Source of the DNA: Isoptericola cucumis
Lineage (GTDB): Bacteria; Actinomycetota; Actinomycetes; Actinomycetales; Cellulomonadaceae
Direction: 5' to 3'
Assembly (NCBI RefSeq): GCF_014635665.1
Contig: NZ_BMDG01000005.1
Location: 124,001 to 188,000, forward strand
Length of the DNA: 64,000 nucleotides
The position numbers were made by a program, and so were the translations under genes. Under the pieces are notes generated by a model. The model made no database searches. It worked only from the letters and a program-made list of their open reading frames with translations, and had not been told where the DNA came from. Positions 8,473-46,158 of this stretch are shown one piece after another. How positions within the stretch are numbered: position 1 is the first letter of the stretch; the number at the start of each line of letters is the position of its first letter.

Positions 8473-9630
8473 GTGACTGATCTGCTCTGGCTCTGGATCC
8501 TGCTCGGCGTCCTCGTCGTCGTGGGCGGCGGCGCCGCCCTGCTCGTCCCGCGCTCCCGCCGGCGCGGCGGCGCGGCACCCCAGGCGCCCGCTCCCGCCGT
8601 CGAGGAGCCCCCTGCCGAGGCGCCGCCCGTCGCCGTACCTGCCGACGACGCGACCGTCGCCGCGCCGCCCGCACCGGTCGTCGAGACCCCGGCCCCCGCC
8701 GCGGGCCGCCTGGTGCGGCTGCGCGACCGGCTCGCGCGCTCCGGCTCCCCGCTCGGCGCCCGCCTGCTGAGCGTGCTCTCCCGGGACCACCTCACCGAGG
8801 ACGACTGGGACGAGCTCGAGGAGACCCTGCTGCTGGCCGACATCGGGGCCGGCCCCGCGGGCGAGCTGATGGAGTCGCTGCGCACCCGGGTGCGCGTGCT
8901 GGGCGTGCGCGACGCGGACTCCGTGCGTCAGCTGCTGCGCGAGGAGCTGCTGAAGATCGTCGACCCGACCCTCGACCGCGAGGTCGCCACGCACGGGCCG
9001 CTCGCCGACGACGGCACCCGCCTGCCCGCGGTCGTGCTCGTCGTGGGCGTGAACGGCACCGGCAAGACGACGACCGTCGGCAAGCTCGCGCGGGTGCTGG
9101 TCGCCGAGGACCGGTCGGTGGTGCTCGGCGCCGCGGACACCTTCCGCGCGGCGGCCGCCGACCAGCTGCAGACCTGGGGCGCGCGCGTGGGCGTCGAGAC
9201 GGTCCGCTCGGACCGCGACGGCGCCGACCCCGCGTCGGTCGCCTTCGACGCCGTGAAGAAGGGGCGCGTGGACGGCACGGACGTCGTGCTCGTCGACACG
9301 GCCGGCCGGCTGCAGAACAAGGCCGGGCTCATGGACGAGCTGGGCAAGATCACCCGAGTCGTGACGCGCGAGGCGCCGCTGTCCGAGGTGCTCCTCGTCC
9401 TCGACGCCACGACCGGGCAGAACGGGCTCAACCAGGCGCGCGTGTTCGGCGAGGTCGCGGGCGTCACCGGCATCGTGCTCACCAAGCTCGACGGCACCGC
9501 CAAGGGCGGGATCGTCGTGGCGGTGCAGCGCGAGCTCGGCGTGCCGGTCAAGCTCGTCGGCCTGGGTGAGGGCCCCGACGACCTGGCGCCGTTCGACGCG
9601 GAGCAGTTCGTGGACGGGCTCCTCGGCTGA
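8473..9630 (+). CDS. ftsY: Signal recognition particle receptor FtsY
   Basis: The 385-residue SRP receptor GTPase docks ribosome-SRP complexes at the Sec translocon. It has an N-terminal membrane helix (LLWLWILLGVLVVVGGGAAL), an Ala/Pro/Glu-rich linker to about residue 75, then the NG domain. The P-loop is GVNGTGKTTTVGKLA (about 192-206), followed by DTFRAAAADQL, DTAGRLQNK (about 275) and TKLDGTAKGG. A true transmembrane anchor rather than an amphipathic helix is common in actinobacterial FtsY. GTG 8467 is an alternative start. The last codons and stop (CTCGGCTGA) form the first bases of a dispersed repeat. Confidence 0.96.
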   Translation: MTDLLWLWILLGVLVVVGGGAALLVPRSRRRGGAAPQAPAPAVEEPPAEAPPVAVPADDATVAAPPAPVVETPAPAAGRLVRLRDRLARSGSPLGARLLSVLSRDHLTEDDWDELEETLLLADIGAGPAGELMESLRTRVRVLGVRDADSVRQLLREELLKIVDPTLDREVATHGPLADDGTRLPAVVLVVGVNGTGKTTTVGKLARVLVAEDRSVVLGAADTFRAAAADQLQTWGARVGVETVRSDRDGADPASVAFDAVKKGRVDGTDVVLVDTAGRLQNKAGLMDELGKITRVVTREAPLSEVLLVLDATTGQNGLNQARVFGEVAGVTGIVLTKLDGTAKGGIVVAVQRELGVPVKLVGLGEGPDDLAPFDAEQFVDGLLG

Positions 9631-9682
9631 GCCGGAGCGGAGCCGCAGGCTCGGCCGACAGAGAGCTCGGCTGAGCCGGAGG
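9622..9682 (+). repeat. Dispersed 3'-end repeat, short copy (R1)
   Basis: The copy starts with CTCGGCTGAGCCGGAG at 9622-9637, which encodes the end of ftsY, and ends with a second copy of the same 16-mer at 9665-9680. The middle keeps only the right-hand part (CCGCAGGCTCGGCCGACAGA) of the longer copies at 16191, 39761 and 46052. It therefore looks like an internal deletion derivative. Confidence 0.8.
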
Positions 9683-9691
9683 TGAGCCCGC

Positions 9692-9760
9692 GAAACCTGA
9701 TGTTTACGCCCGCGCGGCTCTTGTCACACGGGCGTCACAGGAGTCGCGTCCAGGGGAAAC
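9692..9760 (+). promoter_or_regulatory. Candidate GlnR operator region upstream of amtB
   Basis: Half-sites spaced by six bases, as in actinobacterial GlnR boxes (GNNAC-n6-GNNAC), are visible: GAAAC-n6-TTTAC at 9692-9707 and GTCAC-n6-GTCAC at 9723-9738, with a further GAAAC at 9756-9760. They lie 60-130 bp before amtB, a known GlnR target in Streptomyces and Mycobacterium. Binding here is inferred. Confidence 0.45.
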
Positions 9761-9818
9761 CCCGCTCGCCGACGGTTGTCCCGACCCGGCCGCCCGGCCG
9801 GCGAGGGAGGGACAACTC

Positions 9819-11428
<1,610 letters not shown>

Positions 11429-11429
11429 G

Positions 11430-13289
11430 TTGCCGCAGCACCCGCCGGTCCCTCCGCCGGCGTCGTCGTCGGCGTCTCCGTCGGCACCGACCGGGCCCCG
11501 CACCCCGCACGGGGCGCGGGGCCCGGTCGGCGACCTGCGCTCCGACCTGCTCGATGCCGCCGCCGCACTGACGGGCCCGGGACGCTCGGGGGTCGCACGC
11601 CGCGCTGCGCTCCAGCAGATCGTCACCGACCGGCTCGCCGCCCTGTACGCGGCGGCGACCGCCGACGTCGACCCGGCGGGGATGGCGCTCGCGGCGGTGG
11701 GGAGCCTGGGGCGCGCCGAGCTCGGCCCGGCGTCGGACCTCGACCTGGTGCTGGTGCACGACGGGCGCACCCACCGGCCCGCAGAGGTCGCCCGGGTCGC
11801 GGAGCGGCTCTGGTACCCGCTCTGGGACTCGGGTGTCCACCTCGACCACGCCGTACGGACCCTGGGTCAGACGCGGCAGCTGGCGTCGAGGGACCTGCCC
11901 GCCGCGGTGGGCTGGCTGGACGTGCGTCCCGTCGCCGGGGACGCGGTCGTCGTGCACCGCGCGGCGTCCGCCATCCTCACCGACTGGCGCTCCGCGTCGC
12001 GCCGCCGGCTGCCCGAGCTGCTGGCGAGCGCGCGACAGCGCGCCGAGCGGGCGGGCGAGCTGGCCTACCTGATCGAGCCCGACCTCAAGGAGGCCCGCGG
12101 CGGGGTCCGCGACGCGGTGCTGCTCACCGCGCTCGCGGCGACCTGGCTCACCGACCGCCCGCACGGGGGTGTCGACCAGGCGTCCGCGCACCTGCTCGAC
12201 GTGCGCGACACGCTCCAGGTCGTGACGCGGCGGCGCACGACGCGACTGCTGCTGGCCGACCTGGACGAGGTCGCGGCCCGGTGCGGCCACGACGACCCGG
12301 ACGAGCTGCTGGCCGGGCTCGCGGCCGCGGGGCGGGAGATCTCCTACGCGCTGGACGCGACGGCACGCCGGGCGCTGCGGACCCTGCAGCGCCCGCCGGC
12401 GCGCGGTCCCGTCCTCGTGCGTGGCAGGCGTGCGGCACCGCGGCTGCGATCGGTGGGCGAGGGGCTCGTGGAGCACGACGGCGAGCTGGTGCTGGCCGTG
12501 GGCGTCGAGCCGGCCACCGACCCGCTGCTGGCCCTGCGGGCGGCGTCCACCGCGGCGCGCACCGGGCTGGCGCTCTCCCCGGTGACGGTGCGCTCCCTCG
12601 CGCAGTGCCCGCCGCCGCCCGAGCCGTGGCCGGCGGCAGCCCGTGCGGCGCTGCTCGCGCTGCTCGGCGCCGGGCCCGCGCAGGTCCCGGTCTGGGAGGC
12701 GCTGGACCTGGCCGGCGTCGTGACCACGTGGATCCCGGCGTGGGCGGCGGTGCGGAACAAGCCCCAGCGGGCGGCCATCCACCGGCACACGGTCGACCGG
12801 CACCTCGTGGAGACGGCGGCGCGCGCGGCGGGCGTGCGCCGGCGGGTGGCCGCGACGCCCGGGGCGACGGCGGCGCCGTCCGTGCCGGTGCTGCTGGGTG
12901 CGCTGCTGCACGACGTCGGCAAGCGCCGCGGGGCGCTCGAGGCCGACCACAGCACGGAGGGCGCCCGGGTGGCGCCGCAGGTCGTGGGGCGGCTCGGCTT
13001 CGACGCGGGCGTCGCGGCGGACGTCGGCCTGCTCGTGCGTCATCACCTGACCCTGGCGCGGCTCGCGACCACGGCGGACCCCGCGGCCCCGGAGACGCTC
13101 GGCGAGCTGCTCGACGCCGTCGGGCGCCGGGCCGACCTGCTCGAGGCGCTGCGGGTGATCACCGAGGCGGACGCGTCGTCCCTCGGGCCGAGCGGGTGGA
13201 CGGCGTGGCGGGCCGGCCTGGTCGACGACCTCACCGCCCGGGGCCGCGCGGCGCTGGCCGCGGAGGGGGCCACGCCCGCCGGCCGGTAG
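11430..13289 (+). CDS. glnD: PII-modifying nucleotidyltransferase GlnD, lacking C-terminal ACT domains
   Basis: The 619-residue enzyme would add and remove a nucleotide on Tyr51 of the PII protein encoded next to it. The nucleotidyltransferase motif [15 protein letters not shown] lies near residues 90-105. The HD domain is intact ([32 protein letters not shown]). Full-length GlnD proteins of about 800-890 residues carry two ACT domains after the HD domain. Here the protein stops shortly after it, and the next bases are the ffh promoter, so the glutamine-sensing part is absent. TTG 11430, one base after the glnK stop, is the only start codon ahead of the catalytic domain. The stop TAG overlaps the ffh -10 element. 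Confidence 0.88.
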
Positions 13290-13292
13290 GCT
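13287..13292 (+). promoter_or_regulatory. Predicted -10 element for ffh
   Basis: TAGGCT overlaps the TAG stop codon of glnD. Transcription would start near 13299, leaving a leader of about 70 nt before GTG 13368, which has its own AAGGA ribosome site. Confidence 0.6.
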
Positions 13293-13367
13293 GGGTGACC
13301 GCAACACGTCTCGCGGCACCTCGACGCGGGCATCACTGTGCGGACATCGACCTGAAGGACCTGCCTG

Positions 13368-15008
13368 GTGTTCAACTCCCTGTCGGACCGGCTCACCTCG
13401 ACGTTCAAGAACCTGCGCGGCAGGGGACGGCTCTCCGAGGCGGACATCGACGCGACCGTGCGGGAGATCCGCCGCGCCCTCCTGGACGCCGACGTCGCCG
13501 TGCCCGTGGTGCGCGAGTTCACCGCCTCGGTGCGCGAGCGCGCGCTCTCGGCCGAGGTGTCGGGCGCGCTGAACCCGGCGCAGCAGGTCGTGAAGATCGT
13601 CAACGACGAGCTCGTGGGGATCCTCGGCGGCGAGACGCGCGCGCTGCAGCTCGCCAAGACGCCGCCGACGGTCATCATGCTCGCGGGTCTGCAGGGTGCC
13701 GGCAAGACGACCCTCGCCGGCAAGCTGGCGCTCGCGCTCAAGGAGCAGGGGCACACCCCGCTGCTCGTCGCTGCCGACCTGCAGCGCCCCAACGCCGTCA
13801 CCCAGCTGTCCGTCGTGGCCGAGCGCGCGGGCGTGCCGGTCTTCGCGCCGCACCCGGGGAACACCAGCGGGTCCGACGCCGAGACGGACACGCTCATCGG
13901 CGACCCGGTGGGCGTGGCGCGCGACGGCGTCGCCGAGGCGCGTGCCAAGCAGCACGACGTCGTCATCGTCGACACCGCGGGCCGCCTCGGCGTGGACCAG
14001 GTGCTCATGCAGCAGGCCGCGGACATCCGCGACGCCGTGACGCCCGACGAGGTCCTGTTCGTCATCGACGCGATGATCGGCCAGGACGCCGTCGCCACGG
14101 CCCAGGCGTTCCTCGACGGCGTCGACTTCACCGGCGTCGTGCTCTCGAAGCTCGACGGCGACGCGCGCGGCGGTGCCGCGCTGTCGGTGGCCCGGGTCAC
14201 CGGGCGGCCGATCATGTTCGCCTCCACGGGCGAGAAGCTCACCGACTTCGAGGTCTTCCACCCCGACCGGATGGCGTCGCGCATCCTCGACATGGGTGAC
14301 GTGCTCACCCTCATCGAGCAGGCCGAGCGGGCCTTCGACGCCGAAGAGGCCGAGAAGATGGCGGCCAAGGTCAGCGCGGGCGAGGACTTCACGCTGTCCG
14401 ACTTCCTGGTGCAGATGCAGCAGATGAAGAAGCTCGGCTCGATGAAGAAGATGCTCGGCATGCTGCCGGGCATGGCGCAGATGCGCGACCAGCTCGAGAA
14501 CTTCGACGAGCGCGAGGTCGACCGCGTCCAGGCGATCATCCAGTCGATGACGCCGGCGGAGCGCGAGAACCCGAAGATCATCAACGGCTCGCGCCGGGCG
14601 CGTATCGCGCGCGGTTCGGGCCAGACGACCACCGCCGTCAACGGCCTGCTCGACCGGTTCACCCAGGCGCAGAAGATGATGCGCCAGATGAGCAAGGGCG
14701 GCGGCGCGCCCGGGATGCCCGGCATGCCCGGCGGGATGCCCGGCATGCCGGGGATGCCGGGTGGCGGCAAGAAGGCGCGCGGCAAGCAGCCGCCTGCCAA
14801 GAAGAAGAAGGGCAAGTCGGGCAACCCCGCGAAGCGCGCCCAGCAGGAGCGCGAGGCGATGCAGCGCGCGCTCGGCGGCGGGGGGAGCAAGGCCCCCGCG
14901 GGGTCGGCCTTCGGCGTCGGGGGCGCGGACCAGGAGCAGCCGTCCGAGGAGGACCTGGCGAACCTGCAGCTGCCCGCCGGCTTCGACAAGCTGCTCGGCG
15001 GCCGCTGA
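13368..15008 (+). CDS. ffh: Signal recognition particle protein Ffh
   Basis: The 546-residue SRP54 GTPase binds signal sequences and 4.5S RNA and delivers ribosomes to FtsY. The NG domain has GLQGAGKTT (about 106-114), DLQRPNAV, DTAGRLGVD and SKLDGDARGG. The methionine-rich M domain follows from about residue 300 (LVQMQQMKKLGSMKKMLGML). After it comes a low-complexity GMPGMPGGMPGMPG repeat, then a Lys-rich stretch and a tail. The start GTG 13368 gives the family N-terminus (FNSLSDRLTSTFKNLRG). FtsY is encoded about 4 kb upstream, so both protein parts of the SRP pathway are in this window. Confidence 0.97.
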   Translation: MFNSLSDRLTSTFKNLRGRGRLSEADIDATVREIRRALLDADVAVPVVREFTASVRERALSAEVSGALNPAQQVVKIVNDELVGILGGETRALQLAKTPPTVIMLAGLQGAGKTTLAGKLALALKEQGHTPLLVAADLQRPNAVTQLSVVAERAGVPVFAPHPGNTSGSDAETDTLIGDPVGVARDGVAEARAKQHDVVIVDTAGRLGVDQVLMQQAADIRDAVTPDEVLFVIDAMIGQDAVATAQAFLDGVDFTGVVLSKLDGDARGGAALSVARVTGRPIMFASTGEKLTDFEVFHPDRMASRILDMGDVLTLIEQAERAFDAEEAEKMAAKVSAGEDFTLSDFLVQMQQMKKLGSMKKMLGMLPGMAQMRDQLENFDEREVDRVQAIIQSMTPAERENPKIINGSRRARIARGSGQTTTAVNGLLDRFTQAQKMMRQMSKGGGAPGMPGMPGGMPGMPGMPGGGKKARGKQPPAKKKKGKSGNPAKRAQQEREAMQRALGGGGSKAPAGSAFGVGGADQEQPSEEDLANLQLPAGFDKLLGGR

Positions 15009-15082
15009 CCCCTCGCCCGCCCGGGCGAGAGGGCTGAGGAGAGCCGCCCGGACGGCCGACGGGCCGCCGGGTCCGCCGACGG

Positions 15083-15088
15083 TACTCT
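15083..15088 (+). promoter_or_regulatory. Predicted -10 element for the amidohydrolase gene (leaderless)
   Basis: TACTCT lies seven bases before ATG 15096, with no ribosome site between. Confidence 0.6.
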
Positions 15089-15095
15089 CGGTCCC

Positions 15096-16199
15096 ATGTC
15101 AGTCCCGCACGTCCCGCTGCACGTGAGCGGCCACGTCCTCCTCGGCGACGAGCGCGAGGTGGGCGAGCTCTGGGTGCGCGAGGGCCGGGTCAGCCTCACC
15201 CGCGGCGCCCCCCAGGGCAGCGCCACCCGAGAGCTCTCCGGCTGGGTGCTGCCCGGCCTGGTCGACGTGCACTGCCACGTCGGGCTCGACGCCGGGGGAG
15301 CGGTCGACCAGGAGACCGCGGTCGCGCAGGCTCTCACCGACCGCGACGCGGGCGTCCTCCTCGTGCGCGACGCCGGCTCGCCGCTCGACACCCGCTGGGT
15401 GCACGACCGGGCCGACCTGCCCCGGCTGGTCCGCGCGGGCCGGCACCTGGCCCGCTCCCGGCGGTACCTGCGCCACTTCGGCCTCGAGCTGGACGACGTC
15501 GCCGACCTGCCGGGCGCCGCGCGCACGCAGGCGCGCGACTCGGACGGCTGGGTCAAGCTCGTGGGCGACTGGATCGACCGCGAGGCGGGGGACCTGGGGC
15601 CGCTGTGGCCGCGCGACGTGTTGGCCGACGCCGTCGCCGCCGCGCACGCGGAGGCGGCGCGGGTCACGGTGCACGCCTTCTCCGAGGAGGTCGTGGGGGA
15701 CCTGCTCGCCGCCGGGGTGGACGGCATCGAGCACGGCACGGGTATCCCGGCCGAGCTCATGGACGAGGTCGCCGCCCGGGGGATCCCGGTCACGCCCACG
15801 CTGCTGCAGGTGGCGCGGTTCGAGGAGATCGCCGGGCAGGCGGACGGCCGGTACCCCCGCTACGCCGAGCGGATGCGGCGCATGCACGCCCGTCGCCACG
15901 AACAGGTCCGGGCCCTGTACGACGCCGGCGTCCCGCTGCTGGTCGGCACCGACGCGGGCGGGACGCTCGGTCACGGGCGGGTGGCCGACGAGTGCGCCGA
16001 GCTGGTCGCCGCCGGGATCCCGGCGCCCGACGTCGTCGCGATGGCGAGCTGGCGGGCCCGGGAGTTCCTCGGTTTCGGCGACGTCGTCGACGGCTCCAGC
16101 GCGGACCTCGTCGTGTACCCCGCCGACCCGCGCGAGGACATCGAGGTGCTCCGGCACCCGACCGCGGTCGTGCTGCGCGGCCAGGTGGTCCTCGGCTGA
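15096..16199 (+). CDS. Amidohydrolase family protein (imidazolonepropionase-like)
   Basis: The 367-residue metal-dependent hydrolase of the amidohydrolase superfamily shows the TIM-barrel metal ligands in order. These are the HxH motif in DVHCHVG (about 57-63), a lysine in WVKLVGDWID, His in TVHAFSE, His in GIEHGTG, and the catalytic Asp in VGTDAGG. A small beta-sandwich region brackets the barrel. The substrate cannot be read from the sequence; relatives act on cyclic amides, peptides or prolidase-type substrates. It lies between ffh and rpsP, a position seen in other actinobacteria. The final LG-stop codons form the left end of dispersed repeat R2. Confidence 0.85.
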   Translation: MSVPHVPLHVSGHVLLGDEREVGELWVREGRVSLTRGAPQGSATRELSGWVLPGLVDVHCHVGLDAGGAVDQETAVAQALTDRDAGVLLVRDAGSPLDTRWVHDRADLPRLVRAGRHLARSRRYLRHFGLELDDVADLPGAARTQARDSDGWVKLVGDWIDREAGDLGPLWPRDVLADAVAAAHAEAARVTVHAFSEEVVGDLLAAGVDGIEHGTGIPAELMDEVAARGIPVTPTLLQVARFEEIAGQADGRYPRYAERMRRMHARRHEQVRALYDAGVPLLVGTDAGGTLGHGRVADECAELVAAGIPAPDVVAMASWRAREFLGFGDVVDGSSADLVVYPADPREDIEVLRHPTAVVLRGQVVLG

Positions 16200-16299
16200 G
16201 CCGGAGGCCGCAGCGCAGGGTGGGGGCCGAGGAACGAGGCACGCGCCCGCTGCGGAACCGCACGCCCGGCCGACGGTGAGCTCGGCTGAGCCGGAGGTG
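16191..16299 (+). repeat. Dispersed 3'-end repeat, full copy (R2)
   Basis: Both ends carry CTCGGCTGAGCCGGAGG (16191-16207 and 16281-16297). The left one contains the last codons and stop of the amidohydrolase gene. The middle (CAGCGCAGGGTG, GGCCGAGGAACGAGGCAC, GCGGAACCGCA) matches the copies at 39761 and 46052 with a few substitutions. Confidence 0.9.
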
Positions 16300-16331
16300 G
16301 GTCCGGGTTGGGGGTCGGGGTCCGCGTCTGG

Positions 16332-16337
16332 CACAAT
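16332..16337 (+). promoter_or_regulatory. Predicted -10 element for the rpsP operon
   Basis: CACAAT lies just after repeat R2, giving a leader of about 120 nt before rpsP. A second possible -10 (TACTCG) lies at 16345. Confidence 0.45.
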
Positions 16338-16461
16338 GTCCGGGTACTCGGCGTGTCCAGGCCCCTCTCACCTGCACAGGCCGCGTCCTGACCACCCGGC
16401 CGCCAGGACCCCACCCGGCGGCGCGTTCGGTCATCCCACCAGAACCAGGAGACACCACTAA

Positions 16462-16881
16462 GTGGCCGTCAAGATTCGTCTGAAGCGTCTCGGCAAGATC
16501 CGGGCCCCGTACTACCGTGTCGTCGTGGCCGACTCGCGCGCCAAGCGCGATGGTCGGGTCATCGAGGAGATCGGGAAGTACCACCCGACCGAGGAGCCGT
16601 CGTTCATCGAGATCAAGTCCGAGCGTGCGCAGTACTGGCTCGGCGTCGGCGCGCAGCCGACCGAGCAGGTTGCCGCGCTCCTGAAGATCACCGGTGACTG
16701 GCAGAAGTTCAAGGGTCTCCCGGGCGCCGAGGGCACCCTGAGGACCAAGACCGTCAAGGCGGACAACGCCGCCGCGGTCGAGGCTGTCGCCGCCGAGGCC
16801 GAGAAGGTCAAGGCCAAGGCCGCCGAGAAGAAGACCGAGAAGCCGGCCGCCGAGGCCGACGAGGCCGAGGCCGGGGCCTGA
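16462..16881 (+). CDS. rpsP: 30S ribosomal protein S16
   Basis: The 139-residue protein starts [20 protein letters not shown] with the classic S16 core over the first 80 residues. It is required for 30S assembly. An Ala/Glu/Lys-rich acidic tail of about 50 residues follows, longer than in E. coli but common in actinobacteria. GTG 16462 has AGGAGA upstream. Its stop overlaps the KH-protein start by one base (TGATG), so translation is coupled in the rpsP-khpA-rimM-trmD-rplS cluster. Confidence 0.97.
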
Positions 16882-17120
16882 TGCTCGCCGAGGCCCTCGA
16901 GCACCTGGTGCGCGGCATCGTGGACAACCCGGACGACGTCCGGGTGAACGCACGGACGCAGCGCCGGGGCGACCTGCTCGAGGTGCGGGTGCACCCTGAC
17001 GACCTCGGCCGTGTGATCGGCCGCGGTGGTCGGACGGCAAAGGCGCTGCGCACCGTCGTCGGTGCGCTCGCCACCGACGGCCCGGTGCGGGTCGACGTCG
17101 TGGACGTCGACCGGCGCTGA
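16881..17120 (+). CDS. khpA: KH-domain RNA-binding protein (KhpA/YlqC family)
   Basis: This 79-residue protein is a single KH domain. The RNA-binding GXXG loop is visible in RVIGRGGRTAKALRTVV (about residues 44-60). In Gram-positive bacteria KhpA pairs with a second KH protein (KhpB/Jag) and affects cell elongation and many RNAs. It always sits between rpsP and rimM, as here, which points to a ribosome-linked role. A perfect 18-bp stem-loop follows the gene. Confidence 0.93.
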   Translation: MLAEALEHLVRGIVDNPDDVRVNARTQRRGDLLEVRVHPDDLGRVIGRGGRTAKALRTVVGALATDGPVRVDVVDVDRR

Positions 17121-17150
17121 CGGCCGTCGGGCACCCCGTCACAAGGCCTA

Positions 17151-17203
17151 CGACGAGGCCCGGTCCCCACCGGTCACCACGACCGGGGGACCGGGCCTCG
17201 TCG
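17151..17203 (+). terminator. 18-bp perfect stem-loop between khpA and rimM
   Basis: Bases 17151-17168 pair perfectly with 17186-17203 around a 17-nt loop that can itself pair weakly. No T-run follows. It lies inside the rpsP-trmD gene cluster, so it may act as an attenuator or processing site rather than a full terminator. Confidence 0.6.
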
Positions 17204-17304
17204 CGTCCGGAGGGTTCCGGGCGGGCATGCTGGGACCGGCAGCGGGAGAGGTCGACCGAACCCACGAGGTGGTCCTGCCCGAGGCGGGACGAGAAGGAGA
17301 CGAC

Positions 17305-17886
17305 ATGCAGCTGGTGGTGGCCCGCATCGGGCGTGCGCACGGGCTCCGCGGCGAGGTCGCGCTCGACCTGCGCACAGACACGCCTGAGGAGCGGCTCGCG
17401 ACGGGGACCGTCCTGCAGACCGACCCGCCGGCGACGGGCCCCCTGACGGTCACGGGGTCGCGCGTCCACCAGGATCGATGGCTGGTGACGTTCGCCGAGG
17501 CGTCGGACAGGACGGCTGCGGAGCCGCTGCGGGGCGTCGAGCTCGTCGTCGAGGCGGACGACTCGGCCGAGGACGACGCCTGGTACCCGCACGAGCTGCA
17601 GGGCCTGCGGGTCGAGCTGGAGGACGGCACCGTCGTCGGCGAGGTCGTCACCCTGGAGCACCTGCCGGCGCACGACGCGCTCGTGGTCGCCGAGCCGCTG
17701 CCCACGGGGGAGGTGCGGACGCTGGTGCCGTTCGTGCACGCGATCGTCCCGGTCGTGGACGTCCCGGCGGGTCGCGTGGTGCTGACGCCCCCGGGCGGCC
17801 TGCTGGCGCGCGACGCCGACGCCGTCGTCGTCGACCGGCCTGACGACGCGGGCAGGGCGGACGCCGACGCTCCGGGCGAGGAGTGA
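17305..17886 (+). CDS. rimM: Ribosome maturation factor RimM
   Basis: This 193-residue 16S rRNA processing factor binds S19 and helps mature the 30S head. The N-terminal domain starts [18 protein letters not shown], with the signature GRAHGLRGE. The PRC-barrel part carries [13 protein letters not shown] and [17 protein letters not shown] 17305 has AAGGAGA in place and begins exactly at the family start; the long upstream extension in this frame only translates the hairpin region. It ends one base before the trmD start. Confidence 0.95.
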
Positions 17887-17887
17887 C

Positions 17888-18712
17888 GTGCGCGTCGACG
17901 TCGTGACGATCTTCCCGGACTACCTCGCCGCGCTGGACCTGTCCCTCGTGGGCAAGGCGCGGCGCTCCGGGCTGCTCGACCTGCGCGTGCACGACCTGCG
18001 CGACTGGACCACCGACCGGCACCGCACCGTCGACGACACCCCCTTCGGCGGCGGAGCCGGGATGGTCATGCGCCCGGACGTGTGGGGCCGGGCGCTCGAC
18101 GACCTCCTGCCGGCGGCTCCGGACGGCGGGCACGCGGATCGCGAGCCGGCGCACGTCGAGCCTGCGCACCTCGTGGTGCCGACGCCGTCGGGCGAGGTCT
18201 TCACGCAGCGGCACGCCGAGGCGCTCGCCACGGAGTCGCACGTCGTCGTGGCGTGCGGCCGCTACGAGGGCATCGACGCGCGGGTCGCCGAGCACGCCCG
18301 CGCGGCCGGGCACCGGGTGAGCGAGCTGTCGATCGGCGACTACGTGCTCAACGGCGGCGAGGTGGCCGCCCTCGTGATGATCGAGGCGTTCGGGCGGCTG
18401 CTGCCGGGCGTGGTCGGCAACCCGCACTCGCTGGTGGAGGAGTCGCACGGGTCCGCCGGCCTGCTGGAGTACCCCGTGTACACCAAGCCGCCCCTGTGGG
18501 AGGGGCACGAGGTGCCCGAGGTGCTCCTGTCGGGGCACCACGCGAGGATCGAGCGGTGGCGCCGCGACCAGGCCCTCGCGCGCACCGCCGCGCGGCGTCC
18601 CGACATGGTCGCGGAGCTCGACGTCGACGGGCTCGACAAGGCCGACCTGGCCGTGCTCGCCGAGCTCGGCTGGCGCGTGGACGACGGCCGGCTGCGGCCT
18701 GTGGCAGAATAG
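17888..18712 (+). CDS. trmD: tRNA (guanine-N1)-methyltransferase TrmD
   Basis: The 274-residue SPOUT enzyme makes m1G37 in tRNAs and prevents +1 frameshifting. It begins [28 protein letters not shown] lies near residue 50. The SAM-binding trefoil knot shows [13 protein letters not shown] and [12 protein letters not shown] (about 147-158), and [11 protein letters not shown] supplies catalytic-loop residues. GTG 17888 lies one base after the rimM stop. The stop TAG lies in the predicted -10 of the rplS promoter (CAGAATAG). Confidence 0.97.
18705..18710 (+). promoter_or_regulatory. Predicted -10 element for rplS
   Basis: CAGAAT overlaps the end of trmD. A start site near 18717 would give a leader of about 170 nt before rplS, which contains the long-range stem described separately. 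Confidence 0.5.
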
Positions 18713-37130: not shown

Positions 37131-37184
37131 CGATCCCTGCACACGGGCGCCCCGGCGCGGGTACGGACGGTGGTGCCGGTGACC

Positions 37185-37190
37185 TAGGCT
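37185..37190 (+). promoter_or_regulatory. Predicted -10 element for the site-2 protease gene (leaderless)
   Basis: TAGGCT is followed by seven bases and GTG 37198. It argues for that start rather than the in-frame GTG at 37192. Confidence 0.65.
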
Positions 37191-37197
37191 CGTGGCC

Positions 37198-38517
37198 GTG
37201 GACGTTCTCTCCGTCGTCGTCGGCATCGCCGTGGTCCTGCTCGGGATCGTGGTCTCGATCGCGCTGCACGAGGTCGGGCACATGGTGCCCGCCAAGAAGT
37301 TCGGCGTGCGCGTGAGCGAGTACATGGTCGGTTTCGGGCCGACGCTGTGGTCGCGCAAGAAGGGCGAGACGGAGTACGGCGTCAAGGCGATCCCGCTCGG
37401 CGGCTACGTGCGGATGGTCGGCATGATGCCGCCCGCGCCGGCCGGTGCACGTCCCGCGCGCGGCTTCTTCGGCCAGGTGGTCGCCGACGCGCGGGAGGCG
37501 TCGGTGAGCGAGATCCGCCCGGGCGAGGAGGGGCGGGCCTTCTATCACCTGTCCACGCCGAAGAAGCTCGTGGTGATGCTCGGCGGCCCGGTGATGAACC
37601 TGGTCATCGCCGTCGTGCTGACGTTCGTGGTGCTCGTCGGGATCGGGATGCCGGCCGTCACGACGACGGTCGGCGCGGTGAGCGAGTGCACCCCGACGTC
37701 CACGACGGCCGAGGGCGAGCCGGTCTGCGGGGCGGACGCCGCGCCGTCGCCGGCCGAGGTCGCCGGCCTGCAGGCGGGCGACGAGATCGTCGAGTGGGAC
37801 GGCACCGCCGTCACGTCGTGGGACCAGCTGTCGGGGCTGATCGCCGCCGCGCCGGACACCGAGGTGCCGGTCGTCGTCGAGCGCGACGGCGAGCAGGTCC
37901 CGCTGACCGTGACGACCGCGGAGCGTCAGGTGCCGGTCCTCGACGCCGAGGGCGTCCCCGAGACCGACGCCGCCGGCGAACCGGTGACGGAGACCGCCGG
38001 CTTCCTCGGCATGACGCCCACCCAGGAGCACGAGCCCCTGCCGCTGTCCAGCGTCCCGTCGGAGACCTGGCGGATGGTGTCGGGGACGGCGGCGATCATC
38101 GTCACCCTGCCGGTGCAGGTCGCGCAGACGGCCGTCCAGGCCTTCACCGACGAGGAGCGGTCCGCCGACGGCGTCGTGAGCATCGTCGGGGTGGGGCGGC
38201 TCGCGGTGGACGTCGTCGCGGCGGACGCGCCCGTCGTCGCCACGCTGCAGGTGCTGCTCAGCCTGCTCGCCTCGCTGAACGTGGCGCTCTTCGTGTTCAA
38301 CCTCATCCCGTTGCTGCCGCTGGACGGCGGGCACGTGCTCAACGCCCTCTACGAGGGGCTGAAGCGCACGCTCGCGCGCCTGCGCGGCCTGCCCCGGCCC
38401 GCGCCCGCCGACGTCGCGCGGATGATGCCGGTGGCGTACGTGATGTTCGTCGTGCTCATCGGGACCGGTGCGCTGCTGATGATCGCGGACGTCGTCGATC
38501 CTGTGCAGCTGATGTGA
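37198..38517 (+). CDS. rseP: RseP/Rip1-like site-2 intramembrane metalloprotease (M50)
   Basis: The 439-residue membrane zinc protease cuts transmembrane substrates such as anti-sigma factors. The first helix holds HEVGH (His24, Glu25, His28), and the third zinc ligand is in NLIPLLPLDGGH (Asp376). A PDZ domain lies between, at about residues 175-245 (AEVAGLQAGDEIVEWDGTAV). In mycobacteria the equivalent is Rip1, which sits at the same dxr-ispG locus. GTG 37198 is supported by the -10 seven bases upstream. About 85 bp separate it from ispG. Confidence 0.93.
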   Translation: MDVLSVVVGIAVVLLGIVVSIALHEVGHMVPAKKFGVRVSEYMVGFGPTLWSRKKGETEYGVKAIPLGGYVRMVGMMPPAPAGARPARGFFGQVVADAREASVSEIRPGEEGRAFYHLSTPKKLVVMLGGPVMNLVIAVVLTFVVLVGIGMPAVTTTVGAVSECTPTSTTAEGEPVCGADAAPSPAEVAGLQAGDEIVEWDGTAVTSWDQLSGLIAAAPDTEVPVVVERDGEQVPLTVTTAERQVPVLDAEGVPETDAAGEPVTETAGFLGMTPTQEHEPLPLSSVPSETWRMVSGTAAIIVTLPVQVAQTAVQAFTDEERSADGVVSIVGVGRLAVDVVAADAPVVATLQVLLSLLASLNVALFVFNLIPLLPLDGGHVLNALYEGLKRTLARLRGLPRPAPADVARMMPVAYVMFVVLIGTGALLMIADVVDPVQLM

Positions 38518-38589
38518 CGGTCCCGCGCTGAACGACCTGCCCGGGGGCTCTCGCACGCGCCCGGGTGCGTACCACCCCGCCGGACGCGC

Positions 38590-38595
38590 GATACT
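38590..38595 (+). promoter_or_regulatory. Predicted -10 element for ispG (leaderless)
   Basis: GATACT is followed by six bases and GTG 38602. Confidence 0.55.
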
Positions 38596-38601
38596 GGCAC
38601 C

Positions 38602-39760
<1,159 letters not shown>

Positions 39761-39765
<5 letters not shown>

Positions 39766-39858
39766 GACGGAGGTGCAGCGCAGGGTGGGGGTCGAGGGAC
39801 GAGGCACCCGCCCGCAGCGGAACCGCAGGCTCGGCCGATAGACGGTCCGGCTGAGACG
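39761..39858 (+). repeat. Dispersed 3'-end repeat, full copy (R3)
   Basis: It starts at the ispG stop (GCTGAGACGGAGGTG) and ends with CCGGCTGAGACG at 39847-39858. The middle matches R2 and R4 (CAGCGCAGGGTG, CGAGGCACCCGCCCGCAG, CGGAACCGCAGGCTCGGCC). Both ends of this copy read GAGACG where the other copies read GAGCCG. Confidence 0.9.
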
Positions 39859-39908
39859 CACGACACCGCCCGGGCACGGGGGCGGCGCACGACGGCGAAG
39901 GGGACGTG

Positions 39909-40862
39909 ATGAGCGGCTGGCGGGCGGCGGTGCGGGCGCGTGGGCGCCCGGACCTGCCGCGCCGTGACGGCCCCCGCGCCCGGGTGCTCACCGAGGAGGA
40001 CGTCGCCGAGGCCCTGCGGGTGTGTGCCCTGGACCCGGTGACGGCGGTGCTGGCCGCGTCACGGCTGGAGCTCGCCGCACGGGCGGGCCTCGCCGCCGCC
40101 GGGGGGCAGGCGTGGGGCTTCCCCGCGCAGGGGCCGCTGCAGGCGGTCTGCTGGTCGGGGGCCAACCTGGTGCCGGTGGTCCCCGGGACGGTGGCGGGCA
40201 GCGACGCCGAGGATGCGATCGAGGCGTTCGCGGGGCTGGCGCGGGTGCAGGGCCGCCGCTCGTCGTCGATCGTGGGGGAGCGCACCGCGGCGCTCGCGCT
40301 GTGGAAGCACCTGTCGTCGGTGTGGCCGGCCGCCCGGGAGGTGCGCGACGACCAGCCGTCGCTGGCCATCGACCGTGATCCCGACGTGGCGCCCGACCCG
40401 CAGGTGCGGCGAGCCGCCCTGGACGACCTGGACGTCGTGCTGCCCGCCTGCGTGCGCATGTTCGCGGAGGAGGTCGGCTACGCGCCGGTGGCGACCCCGG
40501 GCAGTGCGTACGCGCTGCGGGTGCGGTCGCTGGTGGCCGAGGGGCGCGCGTTCGTGCACCTGGAGCCGCGGGGCCGCGCGGTCCCCGCGCCGGTGGTGTC
40601 GCGCGGCCCGCTGGTGGCGTTCAAGGCCGAGCTCGGCGCGGTGGCCGGCGGTGTCGCCCAGGTCCAGGGGGTGTGGGTCGCTCCTGCGCTGCGCGGCCGC
40701 GGCCTGGCCGCGCCGGGGATGGCCGCCGTGGTGACGGCGGCGCGTCGTGACGTCGCCCCGGTGGTCTCGCTGTACGTCAACGCCTACAACGCCCCGGCGC
40801 TGGCGACGTACCGACGGGTGGGCTTCGAGCAGGTCGGGACGTTCGCGACCGTCCTGTTCTGA
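39909..40862 (+). CDS. GNAT-family N-acetyltransferase with DUF4081-like N-terminal domain
   Basis: The 317-residue protein has an N-terminal domain (about 30-165) like DUF4081 of actinobacterial acetyltransferases. A C-terminal GNAT fold follows, with the acetyl-CoA-binding VWVAPALRGRGLAAPGMAAV and the final NAYNAPALATYRRVGF motif. It follows ispG, as in many actinobacteria, although its substrate is unknown. ATG 39909 is preferred over the overlapping GTG 39906 because of the GAAGGGGAC ribosome site. Confidence 0.85.
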   Translation: MSGWRAAVRARGRPDLPRRDGPRARVLTEEDVAEALRVCALDPVTAVLAASRLELAARAGLAAAGGQAWGFPAQGPLQAVCWSGANLVPVVPGTVAGSDAEDAIEAFAGLARVQGRRSSSIVGERTAALALWKHLSSVWPAAREVRDDQPSLAIDRDPDVAPDPQVRRAALDDLDVVLPACVRMFAEEVGYAPVATPGSAYALRVRSLVAEGRAFVHLEPRGRAVPAPVVSRGPLVAFKAELGAVAGGVAQVQGVWVAPALRGRGLAAPGMAAVVTAARRDVAPVVSLYVNAYNAPALATYRRVGFEQVGTFATVLF

Positions 40863-40953
40863 GCAGGCCGGCGAGGCGCGCGCCGGTTCGTCGGTCCCGT
40901 CCGGATCATGAGATGGTACGGCGCGTGAGGACGCACCCGACGAAGGACGCACA

Positions 40954-42050
40954 GTGAAGGCGCTGTTCAAGCCCGGCCCCGGGCCCGGGCTGGAGCTCGT
41001 GGACCGGCCCGAGCCTGTCGCGGGCATCGGCGAGGTGAAGATCCGGGTGCTGCGCACCGGCATCTGCGGCACGGACCTGCACATCGAGCGCTGGGACGAC
41101 TGGGCCGCCCAGACGATCACGACGCCGCTGGTGCCGGGCCACGAGTTCGTCGGGGAGGTCGTGGAGGTCGGGCCCATGGTCCAGGACGTCGCCGTGGGCG
41201 ACGTCGTCTCCGGCGAGGGGCACATCGTCTGCGGCACCTGCCGCAACTGCCGGGCGGGGCGCCGCCAGATGTGCATCCGCACGCAGGGCGTGGGCCTGCA
41301 CCGGGACGGGGCGTTCGCGGAGTTCATCGTGCTCCCCGCCACCAACGTCTGGGTGCACCACTCGGACGTGGACCTGGACGTCGCGGCGATCTTCGACCCG
41401 CTGGGCAACGCGGTGCACACGGCGCTGGCGTTCCCCGTGATCGGCGAGGACGTGCTGGTCTCGGGGTGCGGGCCGATCGGCCTGATGGCGATCGCGGTCG
41501 CCCGGCACGCCGGCGCCCACCTGGTCGTCGGGACGGACGTCAGCCCCGACCGGCTCGAGATGGCGCGGGCGATGGGTGCGGACGCGGCGGTCGACGTGCG
41601 CACGGGCCGCGTCGCGCAGTCGCAGCGCGACCTGGGGCTGCGCGAGGGCTTCGACGTGGGCTTCGAGATGAGCGGCGCCCCGGGCGCGCTGCCCGAGATG
41701 ATCGCGAACATGAACCACGGCGGACGCATCGCGATGCTGGGTCTGCCGTCGGAGCCGGTCGCGGTCGACTGGGGCACGGTCGTGACGCACATGCTCACCC
41801 TCAAGGGGATCTACGGCCGCGAGATGTTCGAGACGTGGCAGGCGATGGACGCGATGCTCCGCACGAGCGAGACCCTGCGCTCCGCCATCGCGTCCGTGGT
41901 CACCGACCGCCTGCCGGCGAGCCGGTGGGCGGACGGGTTCGCCGCGGCGGCCTCCGCCCACGGCGGCAAGGTCGTGCTCGACTGGACGGACTGGACGGAC
42001 GGGCCGGCCGCAACGGACGCCGGGACGGGCGAGGGAGAGAAGGCGCACTG

Positions 42051-42051
<1 letters not shown>
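40954..42051 (+). CDS. tdh: L-threonine 3-dehydrogenase
   Basis: The 365-residue zinc medium-chain dehydrogenase oxidises threonine to 2-amino-3-ketobutyrate with [19 protein letters not shown] and [11 protein letters not shown] hold the catalytic zinc ligands. The four structural-zinc Cys lie in [15 protein letters not shown]. The Rossmann segment [15 protein letters not shown] follows, then [16 protein letters not shown] 40954 has GAAGGACG upstream. The product feeds the next gene, kbl, which starts on its stop codon (TGATG). A C-terminal tail of about 20 residues (Thr/Gly/Glu-rich) exceeds the usual length. Confidence 0.95.
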
Positions 42052-43241
<1,190 letters not shown>

Positions 43242-43247
43242 CGGGCG

Positions 43248-44150
43248 TTACTTGAGCAGCTTCGACATCCTCCGGTCGGCGAGCACCTGCCCGCCCGTCT
43301 GGCACGTGGCGCAGTACTGCAGGGAGCGGTCGGCGAAGCTCACCTCGCGCACGACGTCGCCGCACACCGGGCAGGTCTCGCCGGTGCGGCCGTGCACGCG
43401 CATGCCGCGCCGCTTCGCGTCCTTGAGCTCGGCGGCGGGCTTGCCGGCGGCCGCCGCGACGGCGTCGCGCAGCGTGGCCACGGTGGCGTCGTGCAGCGCG
43501 GCGACCTCGGCGTCGGTGAACGACCGCGTGAGCTTGAACGGGGAGAACCGTGCGACGTGCAGGATCTCGTCGGAGTAGGCGTTGCCGATCCCCGCGATCG
43601 CGTGCTGGTCGCGCAGCAGGCCCTTGACCTGCTGGTTCTTCGCCGCGAGGAGGCCGGCGAGCGCCGGGACGTCGAAGCCGTCCGCGAGGGGGTCGACGCC
43701 GAGGGTGCGGACCTGCTCGATCTCCTCGGGGTCGCGCACCACGTGCACGGCCAGCCGCTTGCGGGTGCCCGCCTCCGTGAGGTCGAAGCCCGCCCCGTCG
43801 TCGAGCCGCACGCGCAGCGCGAGCGCTGGGCCCTTCGTCCCGCCGCCCATCCGCGGCCGCACGGGCGTGGTCGGCGCCTGCTCCTTCCACCGCACCCAGC
43901 CGCCGCGGGACAGGTGGAACACCAGGTGGAGGTCGTCGCCCGGGGCGCCGCCCGCCGGCGAGGCACGCATGTCCAGCCACTTGCCGTGGCGCGTCCAGCC
44001 GGCGATCGTGCACCCGACGAGGGCGGTGACGGGCGGGTCGAACGTCTTCAGGGCGGCGATCGCGGCGACGTCGGCGGCGACGACGGCGCGCCCCGCCGTC
44101 CGCTCGGCGAGGAAGCCGGCGAGCGCCTCGACCTCGGGAAGCTCGGGCAT
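43248..44150 (-). CDS. Fpg/Nei-family DNA glycosylase/AP lyase
   Basis: The 300-residue base excision repair enzyme begins [10 protein letters not shown], whose Pro2 and Glu3 are the catalytic pair. The helix-two-turn-helix has [29 protein letters not shown]-terminal zinc finger uses CPVC and CATC, ending in [17 protein letters not shown]. Whether it prefers oxidised purines or pyrimidines cannot be decided; actinobacteria carry several paralogues. ATG 44150 is fixed by the catalytic N-terminus and by a CACGAT -10-like element six bases upstream. It is divergent from proS. Confidence 0.92.
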
Positions 44151-44156
44151 GTCGTC

Positions 44157-44162
44157 ATCGTG
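44157..44162 (-). promoter_or_regulatory. Possible -10 element for the Fpg/Nei gene (leaderless)
   Basis: On the minus strand CACGAT is followed by six bases and ATG 44150. It is part of the 107-bp divergent region shared with proS. Confidence 0.45.
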
Positions 44163-44244
44163 CCAGCAGGCCGCCGTCGCGGCCATCGTGGCCGGGGTCG
44201 CGCGCGGTGCGGACACGGCGGGCGGAGGGGTGGCGCGCCGCCGC

Positions 44245-44250
44245 TAGGCT
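44245..44250 (+). promoter_or_regulatory. Predicted -10 element for proS (leaderless)
   Basis: TAGGCT is followed by seven bases and ATG 44258, with no ribosome site and no room for a T-box leader. Confidence 0.7.
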
Positions 44251-44257
44251 GGCCCCC

Positions 44258-46060
44258 ATGTCGATCGCGTCCGCCCGTCAGCCCAAGGGCGACCTGCTCC
44301 GCCTGTCCCACCTCTTCGTGCGCACGCTGCGCGAGGACCCGGCCGACGCCGAGGTCGCCAGCCACCGGCTGCTCGTGCGCGCGGGCTACATCCGGCGGGC
44401 CGCGCCGGGGATCTACACCTGGTTGCCGCTGGGGCTGCGGGTGCTGGCGAAGGTCGAGCGGATCGTCCGCGAGGAGATGGACGCGATCGGCGCGCAGGAG
44501 GTGCACTTCCCGGCGCTGCTGCCGCGCGAGCCGTACGAGCAGTCCGGCCGGTGGACCGAGTACGGGCCGAACCTCTTCCGCCTGCAGGACCGCAAGGAGG
44601 CCGACTACCTCCTCGCGCCCACGCACGAGGAGATGTTCACCCTCCTGGTGAAGGACCTGTACTCGTCGTACAAGGACCTGCCGCTGTCGCTGTACCAGAT
44701 CCAGACCAAGTACCGCGACGAGGCGCGGCCGCGCGCCGGCCTGATCCGCGGGCGCGAGTTCATCATGAAGGACTCGTACTCCTTCGACGTCGACGACGCC
44801 GGCCTGGACGCCAGCTACGCGAAGCACCGCGCCGCCTACCAGCGCATCTTCGACCGCATGGGCTTCGAGTACGTCATCGTCTCGGCGCACGCGGGCGCCA
44901 TGGGCGGGTCGCGCTCGGAGGAGTTCCTCGCGAAGTCCGCCATCGGCGAGGACACCTACGTCGAGTGCCGCGAGTGCGGCTACGCGGCCAACGTCGAGGC
45001 GGCCCGCACGCCCGTCCCCGCGGCGGTGCCCTTCGACGACGCCCCGGCGGCGCACGTCGAGGAGACGCCGGGCACGCCCACCATCGACACCCTGGTCGAC
45101 CACCTCAACGAGCGCTTCGGCCGCGACGACCGCCCGTGGACCGCCGCCGACACCCTGAAGAACGTGCTGTTCCGCCTCACCTTCCCGGACGGGACCACCG
45201 AGGCGATCGCCATCGGCGTCCCCGGCGACCGCGAGGTCGACGTCAAGCGCATGGAGGCGGCGTTCTACCCGGCCGAGTTCGCCCCGTTCGGCGACGAGGA
45301 CTTCGCGGCCCGCCCGGCGCTGGCCAAGGGGTACATCGGCCCGGGCGCGCTCGGCGAGGAGAACGAGTCGAAGATCCGCTACCTCGTCGACCCGCGCGTC
45401 GTGGACGGCACCCGCTGGGTCACGGGCGCCGACCGGCCCGGCCGGCACGTCGTCGACCTCGTCGCCGGCCGTGACTTCACCGCCGACGGGACGATCGAGG
45501 TGGCCGAGGTGCGCCCCGGCGACCCCTGCCCGAACGGGGACGGGGTGCTCACCACCGCGCGCGGCATCGAGATGGGCCACGTCTTCCAGCTCGGCCGCAA
45601 GTTCGCCGACGCCCTGGACCTCAAGGTGCTCGACGTCAACGGCAAGGCCGTGACGGTGACGATGGGCTCCTACGGCATCGGCGTGACGCGCGCCGTCGCC
45701 GCGATCGCCGAGGACAACCACGACGAGAAGGGCCTCGCGTGGCCGGCGCACGTGGCGCCCGCCCACGTGCACGTCGTCGCGACCGGGAAGGGCTCGGAGG
45801 TCTTCGAGGCCGCCGAGCGGATCGCGGCCGGGCTGGTCGACGCGGGCGTCGAGGTGATCTACGACGACCGGCCCAAGGTCTCGCCCGGCGTGAAGTTCGC
45901 CGACGCCGAGCTGCTCGGCGTCCCGCTGCTCGTGGTCGTGGGGCGGGGCCTCGCGGACGGCGTGGTGGAGGTCCGTCCCCGCGCGGGGCAGGCGGAGCAG
46001 GTGCCCGTGGCCGACGCCGTGGACGTCGCGGTCGCGCGGGTCGACGAGCTCCTCGGCTGA
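44258..46060 (+). CDS. proS: Prolyl-tRNA synthetase (bacterial type)
   Basis: The 600-residue class II synthetase charges tRNA-Pro. Motif 1 region [20 protein letters not shown] lies near residue 45. Motif 2 is in [20 protein letters not shown], and motif 3 is seen as [18 protein letters not shown] near residue 470. The insertion editing domain (about 230-400) removes mischarged alanine. The C-terminal anticodon domain follows. ATG 44258 is seven bases after TAGGCT. The last codons and stop (CTCGGCTGA) form the left end of repeat R4. Confidence 0.97.
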
Positions 46061-46158
46061 GCCGGAGGTGCAGCGCAGGGTGAGGGCCGAGGAACGAGGC
46101 ACTCGCCCGTAGCGGAACCGCAGGCTCGGCCGACAGAAGACTCGGCTGAGCCGGGGCC
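46052..46158 (+). repeat. Dispersed 3'-end repeat, full copy (R4)
   Basis: The left end CTCGGCTGAGCCGGAGGTG (46052-46070) contains the proS stop. The right end CTCGGCTGAGCCGGGG lies at 46141-46156. The roughly 70-nt middle is nearly the same as in R2 and R3. The copy ends 4 nt before the stop of the convergent lipoprotein gene. Confidence 0.9.

Follow-up and report, generated by a model that had tools for sequence, protein, structure and literature searches.

The window analysed here, 64,000 nucleotides (nt) of the Isoptericola cucumis genome taken as a whole (contig NZ_BMDG01000005.1, positions 124,001 to 188,000), contains a short sequence that recurs at the 3' ends of four genes, and raises the question of what this sequence is and how it came to lie there. 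The comparisons described below identify it as a member of a family of small dispersed repeats with a site-matched arm. The main feature of the family, absent from the initial annotation of the window, is a 3' arm which in most copies can pair with the last bases of the preceding gene, joined to a conserved hairpin core.

The repeat unit is about 81 nt long and recurs with a period of 88-93 nt in arrays. It consists of a left arm, T, a core hairpin, a 3' arm, T', and an A-rich spacer of about 8-12 nt (7-16 nt when measured by eye), after which T mostly occurs once more. The left arm T corresponds to the native end of the host gene, made of 5 nt, the TGA stop codon and 3 more nt; T' is the reverse complement of that host's gene end, lies inside the repeat about 70 nt downstream, and varies from site to site. 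The two arms form an outer stem of 11 base pairs (bp), named P1, which includes the stop codon and closes on the conserved hairpin P3/P2; the P2 stem includes the core GTG. When I. cucumis copies are placed side by side, the sequence preceding the core varies between sites, and the difference recurs as T' and mostly as the direct repeat, as in the T / T' pairs TCGGGTGAGTC / GACTCACCCGA (locus L016), CCCTGAGGC / GCCTCAGGG (L022) and TCGTCTGAGGC / GCCTCAGACGA (L003). Two-unit tandem arrays are present in the same genome at C11:32712/32804, C15:65175/65264 and C2:271530/271619, with core words 92, 89 and 89 nt apart. A right-hand TGA was found in 127 of 155 copies; the right-hand repeat may be a true target-site duplication or the start of a lost next unit.

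Coordinates, strand and stop-codon overlap of the four dispersed copies, as given in the initial annotation, were all verified. Each copy lies on the strand of the preceding gene and overlaps its stop codon, namely TGA 9628-9630 of ftsY, 16197-16199 of the amidohydrolase gene, 39763-39765 of a gene at 38602-39765 and 46058-46060 of proS. The gene at 38602-39765, which we take to be ispG-like, encodes a C-terminal Arg, not Leu-Gly, and a relative of its C-terminal part is present in all 18 genomes of the genus. The short direct repeat said to bound each copy does exist; it is not a fixed end of the element, but a second copy of the host gene's own end. In the ftsY copy the core is deleted. The parts of the four copies are as follows.

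9623..9633, + strand: ftsY copy, left arm T (5 last nt of ftsY, TGA 9628-9630 and 3 nt of the repeat)
9634..9647, + strand: ftsY copy, leftover of the repeat core, P2 hairpin deleted (query positions 1-28 and 68-115 match separately; only 19.8 bits with the model)
9648..9658, + strand: ftsY copy, 3' arm T' GGCTCGGCCGA, complement of 9623-9633
9667..9684, + strand: ftsY copy, gene end directly repeated on the right (TGA 9672-9674) and start of a truncated next unit
16192..16202, + strand: amidohydrolase copy, left arm T (TGA 16197-16199)
16218..16248, + strand: amidohydrolase copy, conserved hairpin P2, apical loop GAGGAACGA
16264..16273, + strand: amidohydrolase copy, 3' arm T' GCCCGGCCGA
16282..16299, + strand: amidohydrolase copy, right-hand direct repeat of the gene end and truncated next unit
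39758..39768, + strand: ispG copy, left arm T (TGA 39763-39765)
39783..39813, + strand: ispG copy, conserved hairpin P2
39828..39838, + strand: ispG copy, 3' arm T', which leaves a single coding base of the gene end unpaired (C-terminus Arg here, Gly in genome G014)
39847..39857, + strand: ispG copy, right-hand direct repeat of the gene end
46053..46063, + strand: proS copy, left arm T (TCGGC-TGA-GCC; TGA 46058-46060)
46078..46108, + strand: proS copy, conserved hairpin P2 (GGGUGAG-G-GCC-loop-GGC-A-CUCGCCC)
46123..46133, + strand: proS copy, 3' arm T' GGCTCGGCCGA, 11 of 11 positions paired with 46053-46063 (one G.U)
46134..46141, + strand: proS copy, spacer CAGAAGAC
46142..46152, + strand: proS copy, gene end directly repeated on the right (TGA 46147-46149)

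The matching of the two arms was evaluated on several sets of copies. Over 190 copies the best T/T' helix score was 23.4, compared to 17.5 after exchanging right arms (standard deviation, sd, 0.24; 30 re-pairings). Removal of 2 duplicates and of 33 copies lacking a usable anchor left 155 distinct copies. In these, all variable positions between -5 and +5 relative to TGA were paired far above shuffles (z 7.4 to 11.9), the anchor having demanded TC[AG] in T', which fixes the three TGA columns. The helix breaks off sharply at -6; at +6 a minority of copies is paired (0.10 vs 0.03, z 8.7), corresponding to units with the register shifted by one. When no pairing filter was applied, P1 was paired at 85.1% of positions in 124 first units, compared to 65.6% in shuffles (sd 0.76; reached by none of 500), with 220 double-changed cells against 64.7; in the alignment of 180 units the corresponding values were 83.3% vs 64.7% and 307 vs 96.1. 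Pairing of P3 and P2 also exceeded all 500 shuffles in both sets.

Since related sequences can beat shuffles without any structure, a test within a single genome and a sliding control were needed. The 22 first units of I. cucumis alone have 17 different 5-nt ends, and 4.36 of 5 positions are Watson-Crick paired, compared to 3.13 in shuffles (sd 0.14; largest of 2000 shuffles, 3.64); for 102 first units of other genomes the values are 3.97 and 2.77. The sliding control was performed on alignment A1, whose 40 units were obtained by a scripted filter requiring at least 7 of 10 P1 pairs (159 of 180 units qualify), with a few added by hand, a selection which favours P1 statistics; two rows (L165 and L150) look poorly aligned and were kept in. 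In these preselected units, sliding the partners by 1-3 columns lowers pairing from 91.5% to 32-41%, and covariation is beyond shuffles on five measures. Application of RNAalifold to the MAFFT alignment of the 180 units yielded only a partial fold; the structure was named by hand and then counted. A U.G pair is kept in P2 in 174 of 179 units (37 of 40 in A1). Since it would be A.C on the other strand, the sense strand, in an RNA-like form, is probably the one which folds.

The location of the copies relative to genes was then considered. In I. cucumis, 22 of 23 scored first units have their TGA at the end of a same-strand open reading frame (ORF) of at least 100 codons. Over all loci with enough upstream sequence, 106 of 124 first units end such an ORF and all 106 stops are TGA, a codon ending 374 of 518 genes in the background (rough gene caller, named loci). 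Some of the 18 exceptions may end a gene too: the TGA of L027 falls slightly beyond the tested columns, and the frame at L105 has 87 codons. Frequencies of C at -4, G at -3 and C at -1 are 0.90, 0.97 and 0.85 in 89 sites, compared to 0.43, 0.46 and 0.47 in the 374 TGA genes; the target consensus, as read from these sites, is (T)CGNC-TGA, with the element in the sense of the gene. Class counts of CGNCTGA sites obtained with a greedy gene caller were unreliable, 47 pre-element sites being inside shadow ORFs, and were not used. The host genes are mutually unrelated.

A few copies depart from this pattern. At L103 2431-2720 (Antribacter gilvus) three 93-nt units are placed in frame within a coding frame, each adding about 31 residues, and at L149 3055 one unit is similarly in frame; the protein is presumably maltokinase-like, and the arms of these copies still pair (GGGGTACCGC / GCGGTGCCCC, by eye). 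At L427 1428-1630 (G167) a core-like hairpin directly follows a tRNA-Ser gene, whose 15-nt end TCCCACGCCCTCCGC is found again about 100 nt downstream; here the arms pair poorly. L070 and L418, outside the core family, are copies behind a gene ending ARSMGITVE, presumably encoding a ribosomal-protein-like product, with stops which are apparently TAA (L070) and TAG (L418).

One candidate reading is an element of the mycobacterial MIRU type, with a short ORF whose translation is linked to that of the gene next to it. The size class is the same, as are the occurrence in tandem, the orientation and the overlap with TGA; L108, L123 and L091 are located at stop/start overlaps, where the ATG in the right-hand repeat opens frames of 210, 292 and 317 codons; 119 of 124 first units have a core GTG, and 82 of 124 show one frame which includes a start and remains open. 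However, only 19 of 94 units have this GTG and the right TGA in the same frame, the other frames accounting for 39 and 36; the GTG also belongs to the P2 stem, and variation follows pairing. An element of this type is quite improbable, and a fixed small ORF was rejected, no frame being conserved.

The family extends well beyond the window, into many genera of the Promicromonosporaceae type among these soil bacteria and, thinly, past them. BLAST searches of the I. cucumis genome (4.46 Mb) gave at least 36 matches at E<=0.01, some of them pieces of one copy, and at least 33 at E<=0.001 with a slightly shorter query; both are lower bounds, since 40 candidates were scored (of 103 for the former count). 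The core word CGAGGNACGAGGCAC occurs exactly 26 times in this genome and its reversed control never. Within the genus, 16 of 18 genomes carry the repeat, with 0 to 33 matches each and no match at all in G003 and G010; I. cucumis, G006, G009 and G014 are rich in copies. A model, R1, built in this analysis and scanned over the relatives, as the initial annotation had suggested in general terms, detected the repeat in 69 of 150 genomes of the family, belonging to 15 of 25 genera. At the level of the order, where R1 was used with stricter filters and 15 candidates were scored per genome, 22 of 297 genomes carry the repeat, 8 of them outside the family. Carriers among the matches listed are Promicromonospora, Antribacter, Isoptericola, Cellulosimicrobium, Myceligenerans, Xylanimicrobium, Xylanimonas, Puerhibacterium and one Arthrobacter. 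The order search provided 18 distant loci; 10 belong to other genera of the same family, the remaining 8 to genomes beyond it. Of the 18, 15 are at the stops of long frames (14 TGA, 1 TAG). In some genera the apical loop is changed, with the site-matched stem retained. Plasmid, phage and viral records gave no match at E<=0.001 and no exact core word. The counts for genus and family refute an origin by chance or as an assembly artefact, which is practically excluded.

The same genes are hit across genera in two groups of loci, the first including L021, L097, L129, L132, L420, L424 and L426, the second L428, L429 and L423; we assume the two genes to be myo-inositol-phosphate-synthase-like and glutamine-synthetase-like. 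These repeated hits may reflect old inheritance or recurrent insertion.

Orthologous sites were compared for the ispG, proS, ftsY and amidohydrolase copies across all 18 genomes of the genus. No model match was found in 66 of the 68 non-own orthologues, the two model-matched copies at the same stop being those of ispG in G014 and of ftsY in G002. Inspection by eye adds a truncated copy after ftsY of G014, together with remnant-like sequence following the amidohydrolase gene of that genome and ftsY of G008. In all, ftsY has an intact or partial copy in 3 of 18 genomes, G008 being a fourth, uncertain case. The FtsY C-terminus is Leu-Gly in 16 of 18 fragments, mostly from loci without the repeat, so this ending is native. 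The initial annotation had raised the possibility that the gene ends are partly derived from the element; this is refuted, because empty orthologous sites share the same native gene end. Behind I. cucumis ftsY, what follows the right-hand repeat (GCGAAACCTGATGTTTACGCCCGCG) can be aligned again with the unoccupied locus of G009 (GCGAAACGTGATGTTTACGCCCGCG), starting no more than 15 nt from the G009 stop.

In addition, 21 further I. cucumis sites were searched in five chosen congeners and regions were compared for 20 of them (L005 gave weak matches only), 97 regions in total. In 93 of these no clear copy was found; clear copies are present in 3 of 17 regions of G009, 1 of 20 of G014 and 0 of 60 of G003, G010 and G011, plus one partial copy in G009. 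L382 (20.4 bits) and L338 (17.8 bits) were not counted as copies and L396 (28.4 bits) as partial only; the reading by eye of these alignments covered the sites other than L016, L017 and part of L015. In G009, the L022 site (L399) holds two gene-end copies without the core, and the copy present at the L021 site has its core deleted (L387); both states look as expected from deletions. A small dispersed element targeting stop-codon regions, one of the possibilities raised in the initial annotation, is supported both by the extra copies elsewhere and by the presence or absence of the repeat at orthologous loci.

Comparison of the arms indicates which of them leads. In 69 last units, at positions where the left and right gene-end copies differ, T' is Watson-Crick complementary to the left copy only at 106 positions and to the right only at 7, with 12 undecided. 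Since T' follows the left arm, the stem which is kept is the one enclosing the core with the gene's own bases. Eight same-organism pairs of units with identical 62-nt cores and different T were examined. The four between-locus pairs (Antribacter soli L069 vs two L116 units; L093 vs two L125 units) differ at 6 T positions, and every one of these is re-paired. Among first units which form close pairs, the per-site difference of T' is 0.257 (I. cucumis) and 0.215 (A. soli), compared to 0.038 and 0.037 for the core, the pairs not being independent and the A. soli core being partly conserved through the search word. Finally, when the copies at a given gene are compared by eye across genera, the two arms are seen to have changed jointly (L021, L097 and L132; L068, L081, L083 and L131, whose gene ends LQYVLRSLVA), so that matching goes on after insertion or copies get replaced.

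Complementarity between an element and the sequence directly upstream of its insertion might suggest a mobile element guided by RNA or single-stranded DNA, T' being a fixed guide choosing targets by pairing with T. Guide pairing has precedents in the exon- and intron-binding sites (EBS/IBS) of group II introns and in the IS200/IS605 guide, and the position of T directly upstream and of T' inside the element, as well as the CGNC-TGA consensus, are in line with it. On the other hand, given the 17 different ends in 22 I. cucumis first units, the guide would need changing at nearly every insertion. Y1 transposases (Y1_Tnp, PF01797) were matched in 0 of 18 congeneric genomes at E<=0.001, 5 of 14 control genomes being positive, and on this absence mobilisation of the Y1/RAYT or IS200/IS605 kind was rejected. 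Rfam scans of the window at gathering threshold gave nothing on the repeats, only Actino-pnp away from them, and scans of the four loci at E<=1 gave two matches, both far below the gathering scores of their families; a known Rfam RNA, group II intron included, was rejected on these scans. Fixed guidance is hence improbable.

The main rival is a selected cis-acting RNA module of the 3' end, in which the hairpin would protect or insulate the mRNA or couple termination to folding, P1 being under compensatory selection and spread incidental. It would account for a P1 which remains paired although both of its strands vary when one gene is compared between genera, the sense-strand U.G pair in P2, the prevalence of stop codons among the sites and a T' which tracks the gene arm. 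It does not account for the sporadic occurrence, with 60 of 60 orthologous regions of G003, G010 and G011 lacking a clear copy, nor for the unrelated host genes and the different T' at loci with the same core. A terminator role, proposed in the initial annotation, found no support: no intrinsic terminator (GC-rich stem plus U-tract) was detected behind proS and ispG, the two of the four window copies scanned. A selected cis-acting module is considered unlikely; compensatory selection on the RNA stem may nevertheless act alongside templating.

The favoured explanation, in which we place slightly better than even confidence, is that of a non-autonomous, non-coding, MIRU-like dispersed repeat which would insert behind CGNC-TGA stops and have its 3' arm rewritten to match the site. 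It builds on structure, T'-T matching, sense orientation, TGA/CGNC preference, direct repeats, tandem units and empty native sites, all of them properties of the compared sequences, from which we infer the mobility of the repeat. Copies would spread by insertion at stop codons with repetition of the gene end, followed by, or including, the copying of T into T' via the hairpin. The rewriting of T' at each site, suggested by loci with identical cores which carry different, correctly matched T', would probably occur by hairpin-templated copying, either a template switch or snap-back synthesis at insertion. The direct repeats would permit tandem growth and precise loss. Judging from ribosome footprints, a ribosome terminating at TGA would cover P1 (-5 to +5); it would thus melt P1, the hairpin re-forming behind it, and the gene end would therefore be a tolerated, perhaps mRNA-protecting, place for the element.

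A stronger version, tentative and possible rather than probable, is that of a self-tailoring mobile element, which on arrival would write the complement of its new host gene's last bases into the 3' arm, in a single templated event. If so, a stem custom-made at each insertion would lock the stop codon in mRNA, a new mode of adaptation of an element to its host. If the arm is templated, the family would make hairpin template switching countable in wild genomes, as a natural readout of the process. If it is selected, dozens of genes would have their stop codon held in an RNA stem, and effects of 3' structure on termination, recycling and mRNA decay would be testable. Arrays with differing unit number may serve as variable-number typing loci.

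Several observations weigh against insertion with rewriting of the arm. All five coding positions are paired in only 13 of 22 I. cucumis and 59 of 102 other first units, with mismatches in the I. cucumis copies L007 (ispG), L009, L010 and L014. In the four within-array pairs with identical cores, only 1 of 8 differing T positions is re-paired, later units being mostly unmatched, and close first-unit pairs are re-paired in both copies at only 10 of 24 (I. cucumis) and 36 of 62 (A. soli) differing T positions. The G.U/A.C strand test is mixed: 1975 P1 cells include 90 G.U vs 39 A.C, about half of the G.U (44) fall in one column, and the remaining two TGA columns show only 1 G.U vs 8 A.C (1 and 7) at fixed-A/G units, besides 14 out-of-register U.G. 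A right-hand TGA is missing within the tested range in 28 of 155 copies. Copies beyond I. cucumis and its genus were found via the exact core word, which inflates core conservation, and the 18 distant loci, whose arms pair better than re-paired controls (helix score 22.6 vs 15.2, sd 0.9), were found by a model which rewards P1 pairing and was built from units preselected for it. Some copies are common to I. cucumis and G009, and are therefore old. In a four-protein tree the nearly copy-free G003, G010 and G011 are sister to I. cucumis (support 0.86), with G009 and G014 outside; because the copy-poor clade has this position, precise losses or recurrent insertion are needed. Finally, the analysis turned up no recent within-species insertion, no autonomous partner and no mobilising enzyme, the search for the latter having been aimed at Y1.

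Among known systems MIRU, compared by description only, is the closest, also consisting of short interspersed units, single or tandem. The present repeat differs in its location at TGA stops, in having no fixed frame and in its 3' arm complementary to the site; to our knowledge, MIRU has no site-matched arm. In PMC12548453, MIRUs are described as short, interspersed, apparently mobile units at translation signals, whose insertion is little harmful; their sites are said to be start codons, an ORF inside the unit being coupled at -4 nt to the gene. For the region between senX3 and regX3, PMC4213456 reports units of 77 bp and 53 bp. With REP/BIME elements the family shares dispersed extragenic hairpins near gene 3' ends, its outer stem being, in contrast, host-specific. 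REP/BIME elements are tied to RAYT (Y1) transposases. Miniature inverted-repeat transposable elements (MITEs) and RU-type sequences have constant terminal inverted repeats, whereas in this family the gene end of the host serves as inverted repeat, which hence varies by site. Traits of MITEs shared by this family are the gene-end direct repeat in most copies and the empty orthologous sites; enterobacterial RU-type small mobile sequences and bacterial MITEs (PMC2229807, PMC2759123) are likewise non-autonomous short repeats. The location at 3' ends also brings to mind integron attC sites, which are characterised by R/L core boxes and depend on an integron integrase. Template switching, the process proposed here for T', is a mechanism and not an element: it mends or creates hairpins, one arm becoming the exact complement of the other in a single event, and the portion of PMC8794818 which describes it does not mention stop-codon insertions. 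The searches of the open PMC literature brought up no earlier account of a repeat with an arm rewritten so as to complement the site of insertion. We know of no small bacterial dispersed repeat with this property; a self-tailoring step, which would be categorically new, is the bolder and less than evenly likely reading of what is here described as a small dispersed repeat with a site-matched arm.

Other features were noted in the window. A second palindromic repeat, with core AACGTCCTCGTGGACGAAACT, has copies at 2617-2685 and 3793-3876, 94% alike over 63 nt, the latter within a palindrome of two 42-nt arms, 90% complementary. An 84-nt tandem duplication, 83% alike, is located at 50239-50406, probably in the variable N-terminal part of what we assume to be an infB-like gene. 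The Actino-pnp cis-regulatory RNA (RF01688) is found at 59126-59212, with a score of 49.7 bits.

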